From Halobacteriales archaeon QS_4_69_225 (GTDB lineage Archaea > Halobacteriota > Halobacteria > Halobacteriales > Haloarculaceae): a stretch of DNA of 64,000 nt. Shown here piece after piece: positions 5,396 to 13,205 of the stretch. The position numbers were made by a program, and so were the translations under genes. The stretch lies in the NCBI GenBank assembly GCA_003020965.1, contig PXRL01000008.1:62001-126000 (forward strand), given 5' to 3'. The number at the start of each line of letters is the position of its first letter. The stretch's first letter is position 1. A model generated the notes under the pieces. The model was not told where the DNA came from. It saw nothing but the letters and a program-made list of their open reading frames with translations, and ran no database searches.

Positions 5396-6871
5396 TCAGG
5401 CCGCCGTCTTCAGCTCCGGAAAGTAGCGGCCGTGGAAATCGAAGGGTGTGGCGTGTGGCAGTTCGACCCGGGCCCGCTCCTCGAGCCGTTCGCCGTCGAG
5501 GGCGAGCAGCCGGGAGCGCTCGGCATCAACGTCCAGCGCGACCGTCAGCACGACGCCGGCGTCCTCCGGGCCGTCGGGGGCGGGGACGAACACCGGCTCG
5601 CCGAAGTAATCGCCGCCGTCGTGGAACTCGACGGCGTCGCCCGTCCGGGTGTCGTGTTTCAGCACGCCGGTCGCCCACCCGGTGGCCGGCTGGTCCATGC
5701 TCATCGCGTAGACGTAGCGGTGTGACCGACACCACCGCGCCGGCGAGGCCGTCGGCAGCGCGGTGCCGTCGTCGTACAGCATCTTCCGGCCGACGGTCGC
5801 CTCGCCCGTACGGTAGCGGTCGACGCCGGTCACGCCGCCGAGGTCGACGGTGAACCGCTCTAACCGGCCGGCGATGGCGTCCAACTCGCCGTTCCGGAGC
5901 GTCTCCAGCGACAGCTCGCCGATGGCCGTCGCGTCGGGGATGGTTTCGAGGTCGAACACCAGCTCCGTTCCGCCGTCCCGCTCGAAGGCGTTGACGTGGT
6001 GGAAGCCGAACAGCGGCTCCGTTTCCGGCTCGGCGACCACCTCGCCGGTCGTCCGGTCGACGACGACCACCCGCGTCCCCCGCTCCGGCTCCCACGCGAA
6101 CCGCTCGATGAACGGCCCCTGCCGCCCGGGCAGGAAGAACCGCAACGGGTCGACCCGCAGCGGGAACTCCGTCAGCACGACGTACCGCGGCGTCAGCGCG
6201 AAGCTGTGCATGTACGCCGGCGCGTCCGTTTCGACGCTGCCGACGTGTCGTCGCTCGCCGGCGCCGTCGAGGGCGTGGATGTGATACTCATTGAAACGAC
6301 CGAACGCCGTCTCGACGTTGAACAGCGTCCCCGTCGCGGGGTCGCGCTTCAGATGCGCACACGCCAGCTGGCCGGCCGGCGCCGGTCCGTCGTATTGAGC
6401 GTCGCCCTCGACGCCGAGGGTCACCGGGTCCACGACGACCGCCCGCGGCGATTCGGTCAGCGCGAGGTACCGGTCGCCGACCCGCTCGACGACGATGTTG
6501 GTGTTGTCGTACGGCTCATCGAGCAGCCCCGCCAGCCGCTCGCGGAGCGTCGTCTCGCCGGTAGCGAAGCCGCCGTCGAACTCGCCGGCCCGCGCCTTCC
6601 GGTAGGCGTCCGTCTCGAGAAAGCGGTTGCGGTAGTGGACGGCGTCCGCCGCATCGACGGCCCCACCGGCCCGATTGCCGGGGTCGAAGCCGAACCGGTA
6701 GCACATCGCCAGCCCGTCGAACCAGTGATCGACGGTGTCGCCGCCGACCGAGAACGCCCCCGGCCCGTTGCGGACGAGGCTCCCGTCGAGCCATCCAGGC
6801 AGCGACCCCTCGACCGCCAGCGACGCCGTTCGCTCCTCCGTCAGCGAGTGAAAGCCGGGCGCCGACTCCAT
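5396..6871 (-). CDS. Carotenoid oxygenase family protein
   Basis: The 491-residue protein matches the carotenoid cleavage dioxygenase family: N-terminal 'PGWLDGSLVRNGPGAF' and 'WFDGLAMCYRF' are family signatures, and four His that should bind the catalytic Fe(II) are visible at about residues 173 (ACAHLKRD), 222 (AYMHSFAL), 291/292 (FGFHHVNAF) and 480 (FDFHGRYF). It therefore probably cleaves a carotenoid (for example a beta-carotene-like substrate) with O2, a reaction that in haloarchaea can supply retinal for rhodopsins; the exact substrate is inference. Length is normal for the family. The stop codon directly abuts the right terminal repeat of the MITE-like element. Confidence 0.92.
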   Translation of the reverse strand: MESAPGFHSLTEERTASLAVEGSLPGWLDGSLVRNGPGAFSVGGDTVDHWFDGLAMCYRFGFDPGNRAGGAVDAADAVHYRNRFLETDAYRKARAGEFDGGFATGETTLRERLAGLLDEPYDNTNIVVERVGDRYLALTESPRAVVVDPVTLGVEGDAQYDGPAPAGQLACAHLKRDPATGTLFNVETAFGRFNEYHIHALDGAGERRHVGSVETDAPAYMHSFALTPRYVVLTEFPLRVDPLRFFLPGRQGPFIERFAWEPERGTRVVVVDRTTGEVVAEPETEPLFGFHHVNAFERDGGTELVFDLETIPDATAIGELSLETLRNGELDAIAGRLERFTVDLGGVTGVDRYRTGEATVGRKMLYDDGTALPTASPARWCRSHRYVYAMSMDQPATGWATGVLKHDTRTGDAVEFHDGGDYFGEPVFVPAPDGPEDAGVVLTVALDVDAERSRLLALDGERLEERARVELPHATPFDFHGRYFPELKTAA

Positions 6872-7346: not shown

Positions 7347-8126
7347 GTGACAGACAGCATTCGCGTTTCTGTCGTTCAACTCGACGAGTACGGTCCGTGG
7401 ACCGTCGAGCCGGCACCGCGACGAGAGACGGATCTCCAGGCGCTGCAGGCGCGTCTGTACGCTGACTTCGCGGACTTCGTCGGCCGCAGCGACGGATACG
7501 CGTTTTTCAATCGGTTCGACAACATGCTCGGTATCGCCAACGACGTCGATACCGACGAGTACGAACGGTTCCAGGAGCGGGTCCGCAACCGGTATCCGGT
7601 CACCGTCAGCGTCGGCGTCGGCGAGCGGGAGACGCCGGTCGGCGCGGTGGAGGCGGCGAGCCGGCAGCTGCAGGTCGCGGGGAGCGCACAGGACCCCGAC
7701 AGGCTAGAGGTGCTCAGCGCCGGGCCCACGACCGACTCCGCCGGCCCCATCACGGTCGGACACTTCGACATCGTCGGCGTGACGGAATCGTTCACCGACA
7801 CGGAGCACGCTGCCGCGGCCGGGCTCGAGATACAGCAGTCGATGGTGGCGCTCAAGCGACGACTCCTGGCCGAGTACGACAGCATCGCGCAGTTCGTCGG
7901 CGGGGACAACATGATCGCCGTCTGCCCGCAGCTGAGCGAGGACGCCTTCGGCGACATCGTCGATCACGTGTACGACCGGACCGGCGTCGAGTACCAGGTC
8001 GGCATCGGCTCGGGGGCGACGGCCCACGTGGCGGGCGGTCGGGCGAAGCGGGCGCTCGAACACTGCCGAGAGACCGGAACGAGGGTACACGAGGCTGTGA
8101 CGGCCCGCCAGCAGGCGGATGACTGA
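7347..8126 (+). CDS. arfA: GTP cyclohydrolase IIa (GTP cyclohydrolase III)
   Basis: This 259-residue protein matches archaeal GTP cyclohydrolase III throughout: N-terminal 'VSVVQLDEYGPWTVEPAPRR', 'FFNRFDNMLGIANDV', 'VSVGVGERETPV', and the C-terminal half 'FVGGDNMIAVCPQLS' and 'YQVGIGSGATAHVAGGRAK'. The family opens the GTP imidazole ring to give a formylamino-pyrimidine nucleotide with release of pyrophosphate, the first step toward riboflavin and the deazaflavin of F420 in archaea. The two halves are the duplicated palm-like domains of the family, with Asp residues in 'FDNM' and 'GGDNM' as metal-binding candidates. GTG start; the end overlaps the next gene by 8 bases, so it heads a three-gene operon. 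Confidence 0.95.
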   Translation: MTDSIRVSVVQLDEYGPWTVEPAPRRETDLQALQARLYADFADFVGRSDGYAFFNRFDNMLGIANDVDTDEYERFQERVRNRYPVTVSVGVGERETPVGAVEAASRQLQVAGSAQDPDRLEVLSAGPTTDSAGPITVGHFDIVGVTESFTDTEHAAAAGLEIQQSMVALKRRLLAEYDSIAQFVGGDNMIAVCPQLSEDAFGDIVDHVYDRTGVEYQVGIGSGATAHVAGGRAKRALEHCRETGTRVHEAVTARQQADD

Positions 8127-9129
8127 ACGGGCCCTCGTGTTCACCGACGAACGGGAGGTCTCCGTCCGACAGGTCGAGACGCCTGCCCTCGCGGAGAACG
8201 AGGTGCGCGTCGACGCCGACGTCTCGGCCATCAGCTCGGGCACGGAGCTGCTGATCTACCGCGACCAGGCGCCGGCCGGCATCGCGGCCGACTCGTCGCT
8301 GGAGACGCTGAACGGGGACCTCTCGTACCCGCTCCAGTACGGTTACTCGCTGGTCGGAATCGTCACCGACGCCGGACGTGGCGTCGACGACGAGTGGATC
8401 GGCCGCGAGGTGATCGCCTTCCACCCGCATCAGACCCGGTTCAACGCCACGACGGACTGTCTCACGCCGCTGCCGCCGGATCTCGACCGGCGGGCCGGCG
8501 CCCTGTTCCCGTCGGCCGAGACGGCCACGAACTTCCTGCTCGACGGCGCCCCCAAGGTCGGCGAGCGGGTGGTCGTGTTCGGCGCCGGGGTCATCGGCCT
8601 CTGTACCACCCGACTGCTCGCCGAGTTCCCGCTCGACTCGCTGGTCGTCGTCGAGCCGCGTCCCTCGCGGCGCGACATCGCCCGATCGTTCGGCGCCGAC
8701 GAGGCAGTTCGCCCGGAGGCGGTCGATACGCCGTTCGACGCCGCCGGGAACGAGGGGTCCGCCGATCTCGTCTACGAGCTGTCCGGCCGGCCGGAGGCGC
8801 TCGACGACGCGATCGACGTCGCCGGCTACGACAGCCGGATCGTGGTCGGGTCGTGGTACGGCTCGAAGCGGTCCGAGCTCGACCTCGGCGGGTCGTTTCA
8901 CCGCGACCGCGTCGAGATCGTCTCCAGCCAGGTGAGCACGATCGACCCGACGCTCCGCGGCCGGTGGTCGAAGGACCGCCGCACGCAGGTCGCTCTCGAC
9001 AACCTCCGTCTGATCGACCACGACGCGCTGATAACCGACGTCGTTCCCTTCGACCGGGCCGAGACGGCCTACGAACGGCTCGACGAAACCACTGAAGGGA
9101 CCATCCAGGTGCTTCTCTCGTACGACTGA
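8119..9129 (+). CDS. MDR-family (zinc-type alcohol dehydrogenase-like) oxidoreductase lacking canonical zinc ligands
   Basis: The 336-residue protein has the medium-chain dehydrogenase layout: GroES-like N-terminal domain and a Rossmann domain with 'VVVFGAGVIGLCTTRLL'. The positions that normally hold the catalytic zinc are changed: 'SAISSGTELLIYR' has Ser where Cys is expected, and 'LQYGYSLVGIVT' replaces the usual GHExxG, so it is likely zinc-independent like the BchC/threonine-dehydrogenase-like 'SSGTE' group. It is locked between GTP cyclohydrolase III (8-base overlap) and the PTPS homologue (3-base gap), which implies a role in the same pterin or deazaflavin-type pathway. The substrate is unknown. 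Confidence 0.85.
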   Translation: MTERALVFTDEREVSVRQVETPALAENEVRVDADVSAISSGTELLIYRDQAPAGIAADSSLETLNGDLSYPLQYGYSLVGIVTDAGRGVDDEWIGREVIAFHPHQTRFNATTDCLTPLPPDLDRRAGALFPSAETATNFLLDGAPKVGERVVVFGAGVIGLCTTRLLAEFPLDSLVVVEPRPSRRDIARSFGADEAVRPEAVDTPFDAAGNEGSADLVYELSGRPEALDDAIDVAGYDSRIVVGSWYGSKRSELDLGGSFHRDRVEIVSSQVSTIDPTLRGRWSKDRRTQVALDNLRLIDHDALITDVVPFDRAETAYERLDETTEGTIQVLLSYD

Positions 9130-9132
9130 CAC

Positions 9133-9549
9133 ATGCCTGCCGACACCACAGCCGACGCGCGCGACGGGACGTACGAACTGACGGTCACGCGGGAGTTCAT
9201 CGCCCAGCATTACCTGACCGTCCCCGACCCGGAGCCGCCCGAAGGGGACGTCCACAGCCACCGCTTCACGATCGAGGTCGAGTTCGCCGCCGACTCGCTC
9301 GGCGAGTACGGCTATCTCGTGGACATCACCGAGGTCGAGGCGCTGCTCGACGACGTCGAGGGCCGCTACCGGGACACGCTGCTCAACGACCTCCCGGAGT
9401 TCGAGGGGCTGAACCCGAGCGTCGAGCACTTCGCCCGCATCGTCTGCGACCGGTTCTGCGAGGAGCTCTCCGACGATAGTCCCGACGAGGTGACGGTTCG
9501 GATCCGGGAGGACGACCTCGCGTGGGCGAGCTACCGGCGGGCAGCGTGA
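9133..9549 (+). CDS. 6-pyruvoyltetrahydropterin synthase / QueD family protein
   Basis: The 138-residue protein has the PTPS (T-fold) layout. Three zinc-binding His are visible, one in 'FIAQHYLTV' and two in 'VHSHRFTIEVEF', then the conserved 'YLVDITEVEALLDD' and 'NPSVEHFARIVCDRF' (second catalytic triad region). The position four residues before the first His of HSH, where QueD and classical PTPS carry the catalytic Cys, is Glu here, as described for PTPS-III type enzymes. Third gene of the GTP cyclohydrolase III operon, so its substrate is probably a GTP-derived pterin or aminopyrimidine product. Classical sepiapterin or queuosine roles are not assured. Confidence 0.88.
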   Translation: MPADTTADARDGTYELTVTREFIAQHYLTVPDPEPPEGDVHSHRFTIEVEFAADSLGEYGYLVDITEVEALLDDVEGRYRDTLLNDLPEFEGLNPSVEHFARIVCDRFCEELSDDSPDEVTVRIREDDLAWASYRRAA

Positions 9550-10433: not shown

Positions 10434-10961
10434 TCACTGCCCGCCCACGACTATCACGACGGTCAACTCCGTCTCGCCGTCGGGGCCGACGACCCGAACG
10501 TCGAAGCCGACCGCAAGCAGGACGGCCTCGTCGGCCCGCTCTTGGACGGCGACGCCATCGTCGACCACGCAGTCGCCGAACCGCCGGCCGTCGTCGTCGA
10601 CACAGTTGTCATCCAGCCACCTCTCGGCGGCGGTGCCGTTGTACTCGACGACGTACGCCACCCCTGAATCGAGTCGCGACCGCTCCAGGGAGTCGACGTC
10701 GTCGTCGATTTCGTCCCGGACGGCGTCGACCATCGCCTCGCGCTGGCGCCACTCGTAGTCGCCGGCGGTTTCCGCGGCGGCGTCGTGGACCGACCGGTCG
10801 AGATACGCGACGGCGGTCTCGCCGGAGACGTCGGGTTCGGGGGCCGTGTCGGGGTGGTAGCCGAGCTGGAGGTACGCCAGCAGGACCGGCACGAGCCCGA
10901 CCGCGACGACCGCGGCGGCGACGAGCACCAACTGCCCTCGGTTCAGACGTACCAGACCCAT
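10434..10961 (-). CDS. Small membrane-anchored pilus-operon protein (DUF7261-like)
   Basis: The 175-residue protein has a short charged N-terminus (MGLVRLNRGQ) and one hydrophobic helix (residues ~11-32, LVLVAAAVVAVGLVPVLLAY), followed by an acidic outside domain containing two Cys (ERWLDDNCVDDDGRRFGDC) that may form a disulfide. The N-terminal arrangement resembles type IV pilin-like minor subunits. It is the last of seven tightly overlapping genes (19-base overlap with the previous one). The DUF name is from memory; the role, probably a minor subunit or assembly factor, is inferred from context. Confidence 0.75.
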   Translation of the reverse strand: MGLVRLNRGQLVLVAAAVVAVGLVPVLLAYLQLGYHPDTAPEPDVSGETAVAYLDRSVHDAAAETAGDYEWRQREAMVDAVRDEIDDDVDSLERSRLDSGVAYVVEYNGTAAERWLDDNCVDDDGRRFGDCVVDDGVAVQERADEAVLLAVGFDVRVVGPDGETELTVVIVVGGQ

Positions 10962-11350
10962 ACGATCACCTCCCCGTTCGGCGTCGGAACGGTCGCTCGT
11001 CCGGTCGGCGCGCCGGCCGGTCGTTCGTAACCGACCGCGCCGTGCGGCGTCCCGACGCGGTACATCAAGTTGTCCGCGAGGATGCGGTCGACGCGCTGCT
11101 CGAGGGCGTCCCGCTCGCGGTCGAAGGCGTCGGCCGAGCGGGTCACCTCCGACAGCCGCGTCTCGCCGGCGTGCCGCGGTGGCTCGCTCGCCAGCACCGT
11201 CGCCGCGTCCTCCGCGTATGCGTTCAGCTGTGGTGTCTCGGTGTCGGCCGCCGGCACGCCGAGCGCGAACCCGGCCGTCACCGCGAGGATGAACACCACG
11301 CCGACGGCCGCCTCGACGATCGACAGCGACAGCTGCCCCCGGTCAGGCAC
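10943..11350 (-). CDS. Small membrane-anchored pilus-operon protein (DUF7262-like)
   Basis: The 135-residue protein starts MPDRGQLSLSIVEAAVGVVF: a charged tip followed by a hydrophobic helix, with a Glu near position five of the hydrophobic stretch, a pattern like type IV pilins (where Glu5 guides subunit docking). The remaining ~100 residues form a small soluble domain with a mostly helical first half and a Gly/Pro/Val-rich end. It overlaps the upstream gene by 8 bases and the downstream one by 19. Likely a minor pilin-like subunit; function is inferred from the operon. Confidence 0.75.
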   Translation of the reverse strand: MPDRGQLSLSIVEAAVGVVFILAVTAGFALGVPAADTETPQLNAYAEDAATVLASEPPRHAGETRLSEVTRSADAFDRERDALEQRVDRILADNLMYRVGTPHGAVGYERPAGAPTGRATVPTPNGEVIVWVWYV

Positions 11351-11981
11351 CGACCGTCACCTCCAGCTGTGTTTTCGTCGTCCGCTGGGGGTAGTACGTC
11401 ACCGTGACGTCGCCGGCCTCGGCGCGGCCCTCGAAGCGGAGTCTCGTCGTCTCGTACCGCGACAGCCGGACGTCGTGTTCGCCGACGATTCCGGCGGAGT
11501 CGTGCAGGACGACGCGATCGTTGGCCCGCACCGTTTCGACTCCGGCACCGGAGTCGATCTCGACCGTCGCCCGCGGGCTCCGCCGCGGCAGCGTGACGGT
11601 CTCGAACTCCAGCGGCGGCTCGAACGCGACGGTCTGCCGTTCGGCGACGACCGCCAGTCGCCGGGCGGTCGGGCCGGCCGGGTCGCCGCGCTCGTACACC
11701 GTCTCGCCGTCGACGGCGACGCGCAGAGGAACGTCGGACGGGACGGCGGCCTCGATGTCGGCCGCCGTGAGCCGGCTGGCGTTGAGGACGTTCCGGCGGT
11801 CGGTCAGCGGGCTGTCCGACGCCAGTAGCCGGTCGACGACGGCGTCGGCCGTCGCCCGGGGCCCGGCGTCGCGCTCGGCGCTCGCGAAGGCGCCCTCGGC
11901 GACGACGACGGCGAGTCCCGCGGCGGTGGTGACCACGAGCAGCGCGACCGCCACGGCCGGGAGGTTCGCCTGCCCCCTCAC
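11343..11981 (-). CDS. Membrane-anchored pilus-operon protein (DUF7263-like)
   Basis: Translation is set at a GTG that overlaps the previous gene's stop in the motif GTGA, giving a 212-residue protein that begins MRGQANLPAVAVALLVVTTA: charged tip, then one hydrophobic helix. The outside part is beta-rich (TVAFEPPLEFETVTLPRR, TRLRFEGRAEAGDVTVTYYP). A longer frame upstream would run into the preceding gene and is not needed. Overlaps the next gene by 8 bases. Putative minor pilin-like protein of the pilus operon. Confidence 0.78.
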   Translation of the reverse strand: MRGQANLPAVAVALLVVTTAAGLAVVVAEGAFASAERDAGPRATADAVVDRLLASDSPLTDRRNVLNASRLTAADIEAAVPSDVPLRVAVDGETVYERGDPAGPTARRLAVVAERQTVAFEPPLEFETVTLPRRSPRATVEIDSGAGVETVRANDRVVLHDSAGIVGEHDVRLSRYETTRLRFEGRAEAGDVTVTYYPQRTTKTQLEVTVGA

Positions 11982-12442
11982 GCGAGCCGCACCTCCAGCC
12001 CGCCGTCGGTCGACTCGACCCTGAGTTCGGTGCGGGCGCCGCTTTCCCACTCCCCGGTCACCCGGACGACCCGGGCCGGGAGCACGAGTGGCGCCGTCGT
12101 CGACACCGCGGGGTCGGGGTGTTCGAGGACGAGCACGCGGTCGCCGCCGTCGACCTCGGCGCGGACGCGGTACGCCGAGCCGGCGATGGTCGCCGGGAGA
12201 TCGACGGTGACGCGCACCGACGCCACCGTCGCCGTCGGCGGGACCGCTGCCTCGACGTCGGCCGCCGCGTCCGCGAGCGTCCGCTCGGCGACCTCCGCGC
12301 CGGCCGCGCCGCGGTACTCCGCGACGGCACCGCCGTACAGCGTCGCCGCCACGAGCCCGACGTACAGTACCACGATCGTCGCCTCCATCGCCTTGCCGAC
12401 GACGGGGCTCATCCCGCGGTCGGCCGCGCCGGCGTCAGCCAC
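11978..12442 (-). CDS. Membrane-anchored pilus-operon protein (DUF7266-like)
   Basis: The 154-residue protein has the N-terminal pattern 'DRGMSPVVGKAMEATIVVLY', close to haloarchaeal pilin N-terminal domains (Gly-Met/Val-Ser-Pro-Val-hydrophobic helix), so it may be processed by the prepilin peptidase PibD. A soluble domain with strands follows (VASVRVTVDLPATIAGSAYR; RTELRVESTDGGLEVRLA). It overlaps the genes on both sides (8 and 4 bases). DUF assignment is from memory. Probably a pilin-like subunit. Confidence 0.78.
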   Translation of the reverse strand: MADAGAADRGMSPVVGKAMEATIVVLYVGLVAATLYGGAVAEYRGAAGAEVAERTLADAAADVEAAVPPTATVASVRVTVDLPATIAGSAYRVRAEVDGGDRVLVLEHPDPAVSTTAPLVLPARVVRVTGEWESGARTELRVESTDGGLEVRLA

Positions 12443-13205
12443 CGGCCGACACCTCCGCGTCGAGGTCGTGGACGACCAGGTAGCCGGTCCGTTCGCCGTC
12501 GAAGGTCGCCACCACGGTCGGCGGCTCGCCGGGTTCCCGGGAGACCGTCGCGCCGAGTTCCTCGAAGGCCCGCTCCCAGGCGCCGGGGGCGCTCGTCTCG
12601 ACGGCGACCGCGAAGGTCGCGTCGCCGAGCGACCGTCGGTCGTGGCTCACGTTCGTCTCGACGGTCGCGGTGACGCCGCCGGTTCCGGCGACCGACCCGA
12701 CGTCGTCGCCGAGACGCGGCGCCCCGACGATCAGGACGTCGTCGTCGACGGTGACGGGCGGCTCCGTCTCGAGCCAGCCCCGTCCGTCGGTCCCGCGGAC
12801 GACGGCGCCCGCGTGGAACGCGACCCGGCGGTCGCCGGCGCGGTAGACGAGCGCTCCGACGTCGAGTCGCTCGACGGCGCTCCCGTCGGCCCGCACCTCG
12901 AGCGTCCGCTCGACGGCGTAGAGCCGGCCCTCGGCGAAGGTCACCCGCCCGCGCTGTGGTCCGGTCGCGGCGATGGGATCGACGGCCGTCTCGAGGTCGG
13001 CAGCGACGCGGTCGGCGTCGGCCTGCGTGGCGCTGGAGTCGACGATCACGCCGACGGCCGCGGTGAGCGCCCCCATCGAGGCCGCCGCGATTCCGAGCAG
13101 CAGCGCGACGGCGACGACGTTCGACTGGCCGCGGCTGCGGCCGCGGTCGCGGTTGCGGTTGCGATCACGATCGTGGTTGCGGTCACGGTCGCGGTTGCGG
13201 CTCAT
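12435..13205 (-). CDS. Pilin-like membrane protein with Arg/Asp/Asn-rich repeat at the N-terminus (DUF7289-like)
   Basis: The 256-residue protein carries an unusual leader of about 25 residues made almost only of Arg, Asp and Asn (RNRDRDRNHDRDRNRNRDRG), encoded by a short tandem repeat at 13128-13203, then 'RGQSNVVAVALLLGIAAASM', a typical archaeal pilin-like cleavage/hydrophobic region. The large outside domain is beta-rich. It overlaps the platform protein gene in ATGA. Length is larger than its operon neighbours, consistent with a main or tip pilin-like subunit, which is inference. The leader may vary in length through repeat slippage. Confidence 0.78.
   Translation of the reverse strand: MSRNRDRDRNHDRDRNRNRDRGRSRGQSNVVAVALLLGIAAASMGALTAAVGVIVDSSATQADADRVAADLETAVDPIAATGPQRGRVTFAEGRLYAVERTLEVRADGSAVERLDVGALVYRAGDRRVAFHAGAVVRGTDGRGWLETEPPVTVDDDVLIVGAPRLGDDVGSVAGTGGVTATVETNVSHDRRSLGDATFAVAVETSAPGAWERAFEELGATVSREPGEPPTVVATFDGERTGYLVVHDLDAEVSAGG

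Follow-up and report, generated by a model that had tools for sequence, protein, structure and literature searches.

Which product is made by the three genes that lie on the plus strand between positions 7347 and 9549 of a 64-kb stretch of DNA from Halobacteriales archaeon QS_4_69_225 (the whole stretch is called the window below)? The first (7347-8126) starts with GTG and encodes a GTP cyclohydrolase III of 259 aa (GCH3; PF05165, GCH_III, 5.4e-86). The second (8119-9129) starts with ATG and encodes an MDR dehydrogenase of 336 aa without zinc ligands (PF00107, ADH_zinc_N, 1.7e-10). The third (9133-9549), also with an ATG start, encodes a PTPS/QueD-like T-fold protein of 138 aa, with an ExxxHSH motif (E37, H41, H43), H26 and E126 (PF01242, 3.2e-25). 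A first-pass annotation had described these genes as an overlapping or abutting trio that suggested a dedicated pterin or pyrimidine product beyond plain riboflavin or queuosine. The layout was found as described, the GCH3 and MDR open reading frames overlapping by 8 nt and MDR being separated from PTPS by 3 nt; the trio itself turned out to be a fragment of something larger and not the natural unit. Haloarchaea conserve a core of MDR, PTPS, a GT4 glycosyltransferase and a methyltransferase-like gene, with GCH3 as an optional addition. Its product is probably other than riboflavin, F420 or queuosine, and we give about even chances to a dedicated pathway that would lead from a riboflavin-type pyrimidine to a glycosylated pterin-type product, in which the 2-amino group of guanine is kept.

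The cluster was delineated on 40 stretches of haloarchaeal DNA, each some 20 kb long; 30 of them surround PTPS/MDR genes, and 10 surround GCH3s that lie apart from these. In the former, the order MDR-PTPS-GT4-methyltransferase-like recurs, with exceptions, and GCH3, a CDP-alcohol phosphotransferase (PF01066) and DUF7475 are optional genes of the haloarchaeal clusters; in the 10 stretches around distant GCH3s, none of the four core families was found. Among 59 haloarchaeal genomes, 32 have the PTPS-like gene. The MDR (E < 1e-50) is present in 31 of the 59, that is in 31 of the 32 PTPS carriers and in none of the 27 others, and the methyltransferase-like gene (E < 1e-20) in 30, again only in carriers (30/32 against 0/27). 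The corresponding Fisher p-values are 6e-16 and 8e-15, by statistics that ignore kinship. GCH3 is nearly universal (54/59), and two copies of it are present in seven genomes, all of which carry the cluster. Conservation across Halobacteria had been set as a test for the trio: MDR and PTPS stay together, at most 500 bp apart in 23 of 31 genomes and at most 5 kb apart in 25, whereas GCH3 fails, having PTPS or MDR as a neighbour at up to 5 kb in just 14 of the 32 carriers.

A scan of GTDB genomes, performed with an MDR alignment, matched at least 595 stretches, 398 relatives among them, and the best 80 were analysed. Partners were counted within 6 kb of the MDR and, as many contigs are short, the counts are lower bounds; judged by their lengths, L155 and L173 duplicate contigs of G057 and G008. 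The 50 bacterial MDR loci contain PTPS (47), RibD_C (47), GT4 (43), the methyltransferase-like gene (33) and GTP cyclohydrolase II (GCH II; 29, in every case with RibD_C), as well as CDP-alcohol transferase (23), LPG_synthase_TM (18) and YceI (12). For the 28 haloarchaeal loci the counts are PTPS 26, methyltransferase-like 23, GT4 18, CDP-alcohol transferase 17, DUF7475 15 and GCH3 8, and neither GCH II nor RibD_C was found within the 6 kb (0/28 for both). Two loci of methanogen-type metagenome-assembled genomes (MAGs) have, between them, one PTPS and one GT4 near the MDR. The order MDR-PTPS-GT4 is also given by the deposited gene names of four annotated plasmid records, and a Palleronia plasmid record reads ribA-MDR-PTPS-methyltransferase-RibD, with GT4 upstream.

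GCH II and GCH III are unrelated enzymes, both of which open GTP to a pyrimidine nucleotide. Because they interchange in the same cluster, the entry compound should be a pyrimidine and not dihydroneopterin triphosphate. The window GCH3 reaches 288 bits against PF05165 (Pfam cut-off 21.3) and 340 bits against PRK02240 (cut-off 306). Over residues 5-241 it matches the solved GTP cyclohydrolase III 2qv6, the archaeal riboflavin entry enzyme ArfA, with 186 bits, and it keeps the GGDN motif, together with 62 of the 71 columns held invariant by 25 cluster-unlinked haloarchaeal GCH3s. Judged by its family, it would open GTP to the formylamino-pyrimidine nucleotide. It differs from ArfA/GCH III in that it groups apart from the unlinked GCH3s, and its host genome has a second GCH3, on contig C11. 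The grouping was obtained from a midpoint-rooted tree of 48 distinct locus sequences, out of 61 GCH3 matches, in which rows L011, L012 and L041 were marked as cluster-linked by hand from their coordinates. The window sequence falls in a group of nine (support 100/95), all nine cluster-linked, whose status as a clade depends on the root; one member, from a Natrarchaeobaculum plasmid (L108), is linked to MDR only. Nine changes of the linked state are needed over the 48 sequences, and at least four are forced by well-supported branches, so that GCH3 was probably recruited into the cluster repeatedly. In L108 (7243-10461), GCH3 and MDR overlap by 4 nt, and next come a hypothetical gene that is unrelated and an IS5 transposase; hidden Markov models (HMMs) detected no PTPS in this 17-kb stretch.

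The second clue comes from the cluster RibD proteins, which have the reductase domain, while Pfam matched a deaminase domain in none of the 11 scanned; of ten proteins scanned, two (L121, L180) are fusions of GCH II with RibD_C. A deaminase-type motif gave three matches in 57 non-haloarchaeal loci, none of them in RibD or in another named cluster protein. It is this missing domain, and not the sequence class, that suggests reduction before deamination, and the missing cluster deaminase likewise suggests that the product keeps its 2-amino group.

The dehydrogenase does lack the usual zinc ligands, as the first-pass annotation had claimed: SSGTE and YGY stand at the positions of the Cys and of the His-Glu (GHE) that we take to be the ligands of classical zinc MDRs. 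In an alignment of 24 chosen relatives, S36, S39, G41, E43, Y74, G75 and Y76 (SxxSxG.E, YGY) are invariant, so the missing ligands are a family trait and no local oddity. Only models of the nucleotide-binding part are matched above the Pfam cut-off (ADH_zinc_N and Glu_dehyd_C, the latter at 2.4e-9), ADH_N remaining at 15.6 bits, under its cut-off of 23.5. The best NCBIfam model, for this protein (residues 4-264) and for one bacterial member, is TIGR01202, BchC (3-hydroxyethyl bacteriochlorophyllide dehydrogenase), but the scores, 64.1 and 75 bits respectively, are far under the cut-off of 291.25.

Similarly, the glutamate reported in place of the catalytic Cys of the PTPS homologue was found again: phmmer aligns E37 with the Ala that 4ntk, a chain of E. 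coli QueD, has at residue 27, a position which we assume to be that of the catalytic Cys27. In the alignment with 4ntk, R80-D81 stand opposite what is presumably the Asp-His diad of QueD, and His26, His41 and His43 fall at positions to which we ascribe the binding of Zn in QueD. Over 47 chosen relatives, there is no variation at H26, H41, D64, L84, E98 or E126; E37 and H43 occur in 45 and D81 in 42. In PTPS/QueD, a Glu of the E126 type presumably holds the 2-amino-pyrimidine edge, and its invariance suggests that the 2-amino group stays and that the product is of the pterin type. The T-fold is common to the window PTPS, QueD (PTPS-I) and PTPS-III, and PTPS-III also has a Glu; however, QueD has CxxxHGH, and PTPS-III has ExxHGH, where the window protein has its Glu at -4 instead of -3 and HSH instead of HGH. 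The QueD model TIGR03367 gives 44.6 bits, against a cut-off of 89.25, and both residues and distribution argue that this protein would not have QueD activity.

An AlphaFold2 model of the window PTPS (pLDDT 93.5, pTM 0.85) matches best, in the PDB, 3d7j (SCO6650; TM 0.83-0.86), followed by other PTPS/QueD structures. SCO6650 is said to have a pterin-like pocket, no zinc, no triad and no PTPS activity. It is of the same type as the FGPAQ relatives found here, i.e. PTPS-IV (COG0720), and the window protein shares its fold; the FGPAQ signature is present in five bacterial plasmid rows and absent from the window PTPS. Of 110 PTPS frames, 88 have ExxxHSH, 11 have FGPAQ and 11 have neither by pattern; the last include at least four ExxxHAH, one ExxxHGH (L148) and one HSR, that of the PTPS on contig C11 of the host genome. 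Hosts of the ExxxHSH type are haloarchaea, Chloroflexota, Gammaproteobacteria, Desulfatitalea, Cohnella, Calditrichia and one Bacteroidetes MAG, and those of the FGPAQ type are alphaproteobacteria, Burkholderiales, Thiodictyon and Streptomyces. The bacterial gene neighbourhood of PTPS-IV, defined by the FGPAQ signature, is alike, with PF00925 and RibD_C (PF01872) (PMC5445326, in excerpt), besides the MDR-PTPS-GT4 order of the four plasmid records. The same excerpt calls PF00925 FolE2/GCH I, whereas Pfam's own name for it is GTP cyclohydrolase II. Bacterial ExxxHSH relatives have both neighbours; haloarchaea use GCH3 in place of GCH II, and have RibD_C elsewhere.

In the pathway proposed here, GTP would be opened by GCH3 to the formylamino-pyrimidine nucleotide, and in haloarchaea a housekeeping ArfB-type deformylase and an ArfC-type reductase would then give 2,5-diamino-6-ribitylamino-pyrimidinone phosphate; in bacteria, the same compound would be produced by the in-cluster GCH II and the deaminase-free RibD_C reductase. 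RibD_C is matched in 59 of 59 haloarchaeal genomes, and no extra copy was found in the haloarchaeal cluster; a further match in four carriers (G013, G029, G031, G057) is weaker and lies on a contig other than that of PTPS/MDR. In the order and with the chemistry that we infer, the MDR enzyme would next oxidise a side-chain alcohol, and the PTPS-like protein, having a Zn-type site where Glu37 and Asp81 replace Cys and Asp-His, may act by acid-base chemistry on a pterin-type (2-amino-4-oxo) intermediate, closing a ring, shifting a tautomer or cleaving the side chain. The presence of the GT4 glycosyltransferase and of the methyltransferase-like protein suggests that the product would be decorated, and that of membrane proteins, one of the CDP-alcohol phosphotransferase family among them, that it would be attached to the membrane or moved across it. 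As far as is known, pathways of pteridine glycosides start from GCH I, and we know of none with a GCH II/III or MDR step. Glycosylated pterins as such are known from bacteria and from an archaeon (cyanopterin, limipterin and solfapterin; PMC3546692, in excerpt), and provide a precedent for such a product. A fully specified version would be a GCH I-independent pterin route, with GCH II/III, ribose reduction by RibD_C/ArfC, MDR oxidation of the ribityl C2' (formally giving the GCH I Amadori product), closure to dihydropterin 3'-phosphate, rework by the T-fold protein, glycosylation and lipid anchoring by the CDP-alcohol transferase, to yield a redox-active or light-absorbing headgroup common to archaea and bacteria; at this level of detail we regard it as a long shot.

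HMMs for GT4, methyltransferase, CDP-alcohol transferase, DUF7475, RibD, GCH II, creatininase, LPG_synthase_TM and YceI found no cluster partner besides the trio in the 64-kb window. In this genome (G000) the GT4 and methyltransferase-like genes lie at a second locus, on contig C11 (L085, 7956-11415), which reads GCH3-methyltransferase-GT4-PTPS, with no MDR. In the alignment the C11 PTPS has HSR for HSH, by which a Zn-type His is lost, Pro for L84 and Asp for E126, and it looks decayed mainly because of these lost residues. Ratios of dN/dS, calculated against G020 for the C11 and the Haloglomus copies, are 0.29 and 0.13 for PTPS, 0.23 and 0.22 for GT4, 0.33 and 0.29 for the methyltransferase-like gene, and 0.16 and 0.12 for GCH3; when C11 is compared with Haloglomus directly, they are 0.34, 0.22, 0.41 and 0.17, in the same order, the C11 PTPS values resting on 119 codons. 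The window trio might perhaps now supply MDR and PTPS to the C11 partners. In a quick MDR tree of 110 sequences, built with no bootstrap, 53 haloarchaeal-labelled rows form one group (SH-aLRT 96), within which the window MDR groups with G010, from another family (97), and not with the congeneric rows G043 and G051. As this MDR falls outside its own genus, the trio appears to have been gained by horizontal transfer; it is probably a mobile, shortened version of a biosynthetic cluster that is conserved elsewhere.

Several observations weigh against a single dedicated pathway. GCH3 is unlinked in 18 of the 32 carrier genomes; conservation is only partial for CDP-alcohol transferase, DUF7475, LPG_synthase_TM and YceI, and no CDP-alcohol transferase was found in the window's genome (89% complete, no positive control). 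The methyltransferase-like protein scores under the Pfam cut-offs, and, compared with Haloglomus, the C11 methyltransferase-like gene is under looser constraint than the C11 PTPS. One bacterial RibD_C is about equally close to the archaeal-type 2azn (94.1 bits) and to 2b3z (92.9 bits), the B. subtilis-type deaminase-reductase RibG, and reaches 133 bits against TIGR01508, under the cut-off of 186. The FGPAQ-type PTPS has neither the third His nor the Glu, which makes a single chemistry for all PTPS members doubtful. The strongest evidence against one function is the linkage of PTPS to QueC in Halalkalicoccus genomes without QueD, described below.

The product might instead be a 2,4-dioxo compound of the flavin/lumazine type, or a ribityl-phosphate conjugate such as the headgroup of a glycolipid made by the CDP-alcohol transferase, the PTPS merely binding or channelling the pyrimidine. 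The CDP-alcohol transferase, LPG_synthase_TM and YceI genes counted above would agree with such a product, and an FGPAQ-type PTPS without the third His and Glu would suit a binding or channelling role. On the other hand, a deaminase is missing both from the 11 scanned RibD proteins and, by motif, from the named cluster proteins of the 57 loci, E126, the presumed 2-amino anchor, is invariant, and the CDP-alcohol transferase is not universal among the loci. We regard a dioxo or ribityl product as rather improbable.

It is improbable that the trio is a second entry point to riboflavin/F420, with PTPS-IV serving the synthesis of F420 (FO). In its favour, riboflavin synthesis is entered through GCH3, and deletion of HVO_1284 (arfA) makes the strain auxotrophic for riboflavin (PMC8305020, in excerpt); PTPS-IV was assigned to F420 from unpublished work in a paper that gives PTPS-V no clear role (PMC5041015, in excerpt), and CofH is above cut-off in nine bacterial carriers, seven gamma- and two alphaproteobacterial. 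However, CofD is matched in all 43 near-complete haloarchaeal genomes and this PTPS in 26 of them, and no CofH match was found in 20 of 35 bacterial carriers (completeness not given); two haloarchaeal genomes run alongside were also under the CofH cut-off. Moreover, GCH3 and RibD_C persist in genomes that have no cluster, and the glycosyltransferase and methyltransferase-like partners are left unexplained. F420 was rejected as the main role, PTPS being absent from 17 of the 43 near-complete CofD genomes and CofH being patchy in bacterial carriers. As a separate observation, CofH is above cut-off in seven of the eight gammaproteobacterial carriers tested (L142, L154, L156, L160, L161, L170, L175; Burkholderiales uncounted), and six of these matches lie in open frames of 814-825 aa with a second, weaker match, perhaps CofG-CofH fusions.

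Replacement of QueD by this PTPS, feeding archaeosine, has its basis in eight of 35 QueC genomes, which have a strong QueC without QueD, all eight carrying the PTPS. In all five genomes sampled from a single genus, by inference Halalkalicoccus (G014, G057, G029, G040, G050), QueC lies 1.1-2.0 kb from PTPS and QueD is missing, and in G057 (H. paucihalophilus, by inference) a QueE-like gene (106 bits against TIGR04349, cut-off 300) precedes QueC, beside GT4-PTPS-GCH3 (L091); in these genomes MDR adjoins the methyltransferase-like gene elsewhere. Yet that one genus accounts for five of the eight, and the assemblies of two others (G000, G008) are incomplete; a QueC match at E < 1e-20 is missing from 11 of the 32 PTPS carriers, the window protein reaches only half of the QueD cut-off, with its Cys and Asp-His positions altered, and the usual PTPS partners are not queuosine genes; a general queuosine/archaeosine role, which we consider very improbable, was therefore rejected, Halalkalicoccus aside. 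The view that the product goes beyond plain riboflavin or queuosine is supported by the co-occurrence of MDR, PTPS and the methyltransferase-like gene, by the group of exclusively linked GCH3s and by GCH II in bacteria; in Halalkalicoccus the PTPS may have a QueD role.

In the neighbourhood of the trio, an RPE65-family carotenoid oxygenase (1.5e-106) is encoded on the opposite, minus strand at 5396-6871, 0.5 kb upstream, and five small overlapping genes of the families DUF7261, DUF7262, DUF7263, DUF7266 and DUF7289 occupy 10434-13205, also on the minus strand.

A literature search, which covered few subscription journals, gave no description of the MDR-PTPS-GT4-methyltransferase cluster as such, nor of its cross-domain occurrence, the ExxxHSH branch, the GCH II/III swap or the evidence against F420; already in print, as far as the excerpts go, are the bacterial PTPS-IV beside PF00925 and RibD_C (PMC5445326) and the claim of an F420 role (PMC5041015). 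The annotation of related PTPS proteins, deposited as 6-carboxytetrahydropterin synthase, would have to be corrected, and so would the printed F420 role. The MDR-PTPS pair occurs in haloarchaea, Chloroflexota, several proteobacterial groups, Cohnella, Calditrichia and Streptomyces, often with the same glycosyltransferase and methyltransferase-like genes after it, and this spread implies a widely used small molecule. The swap between GCH II and GCH III points to the start of its pathway, and the missing deaminase to what the product keeps; with both clues, the compound could be sought by mass spectrometry with labelled guanosine.

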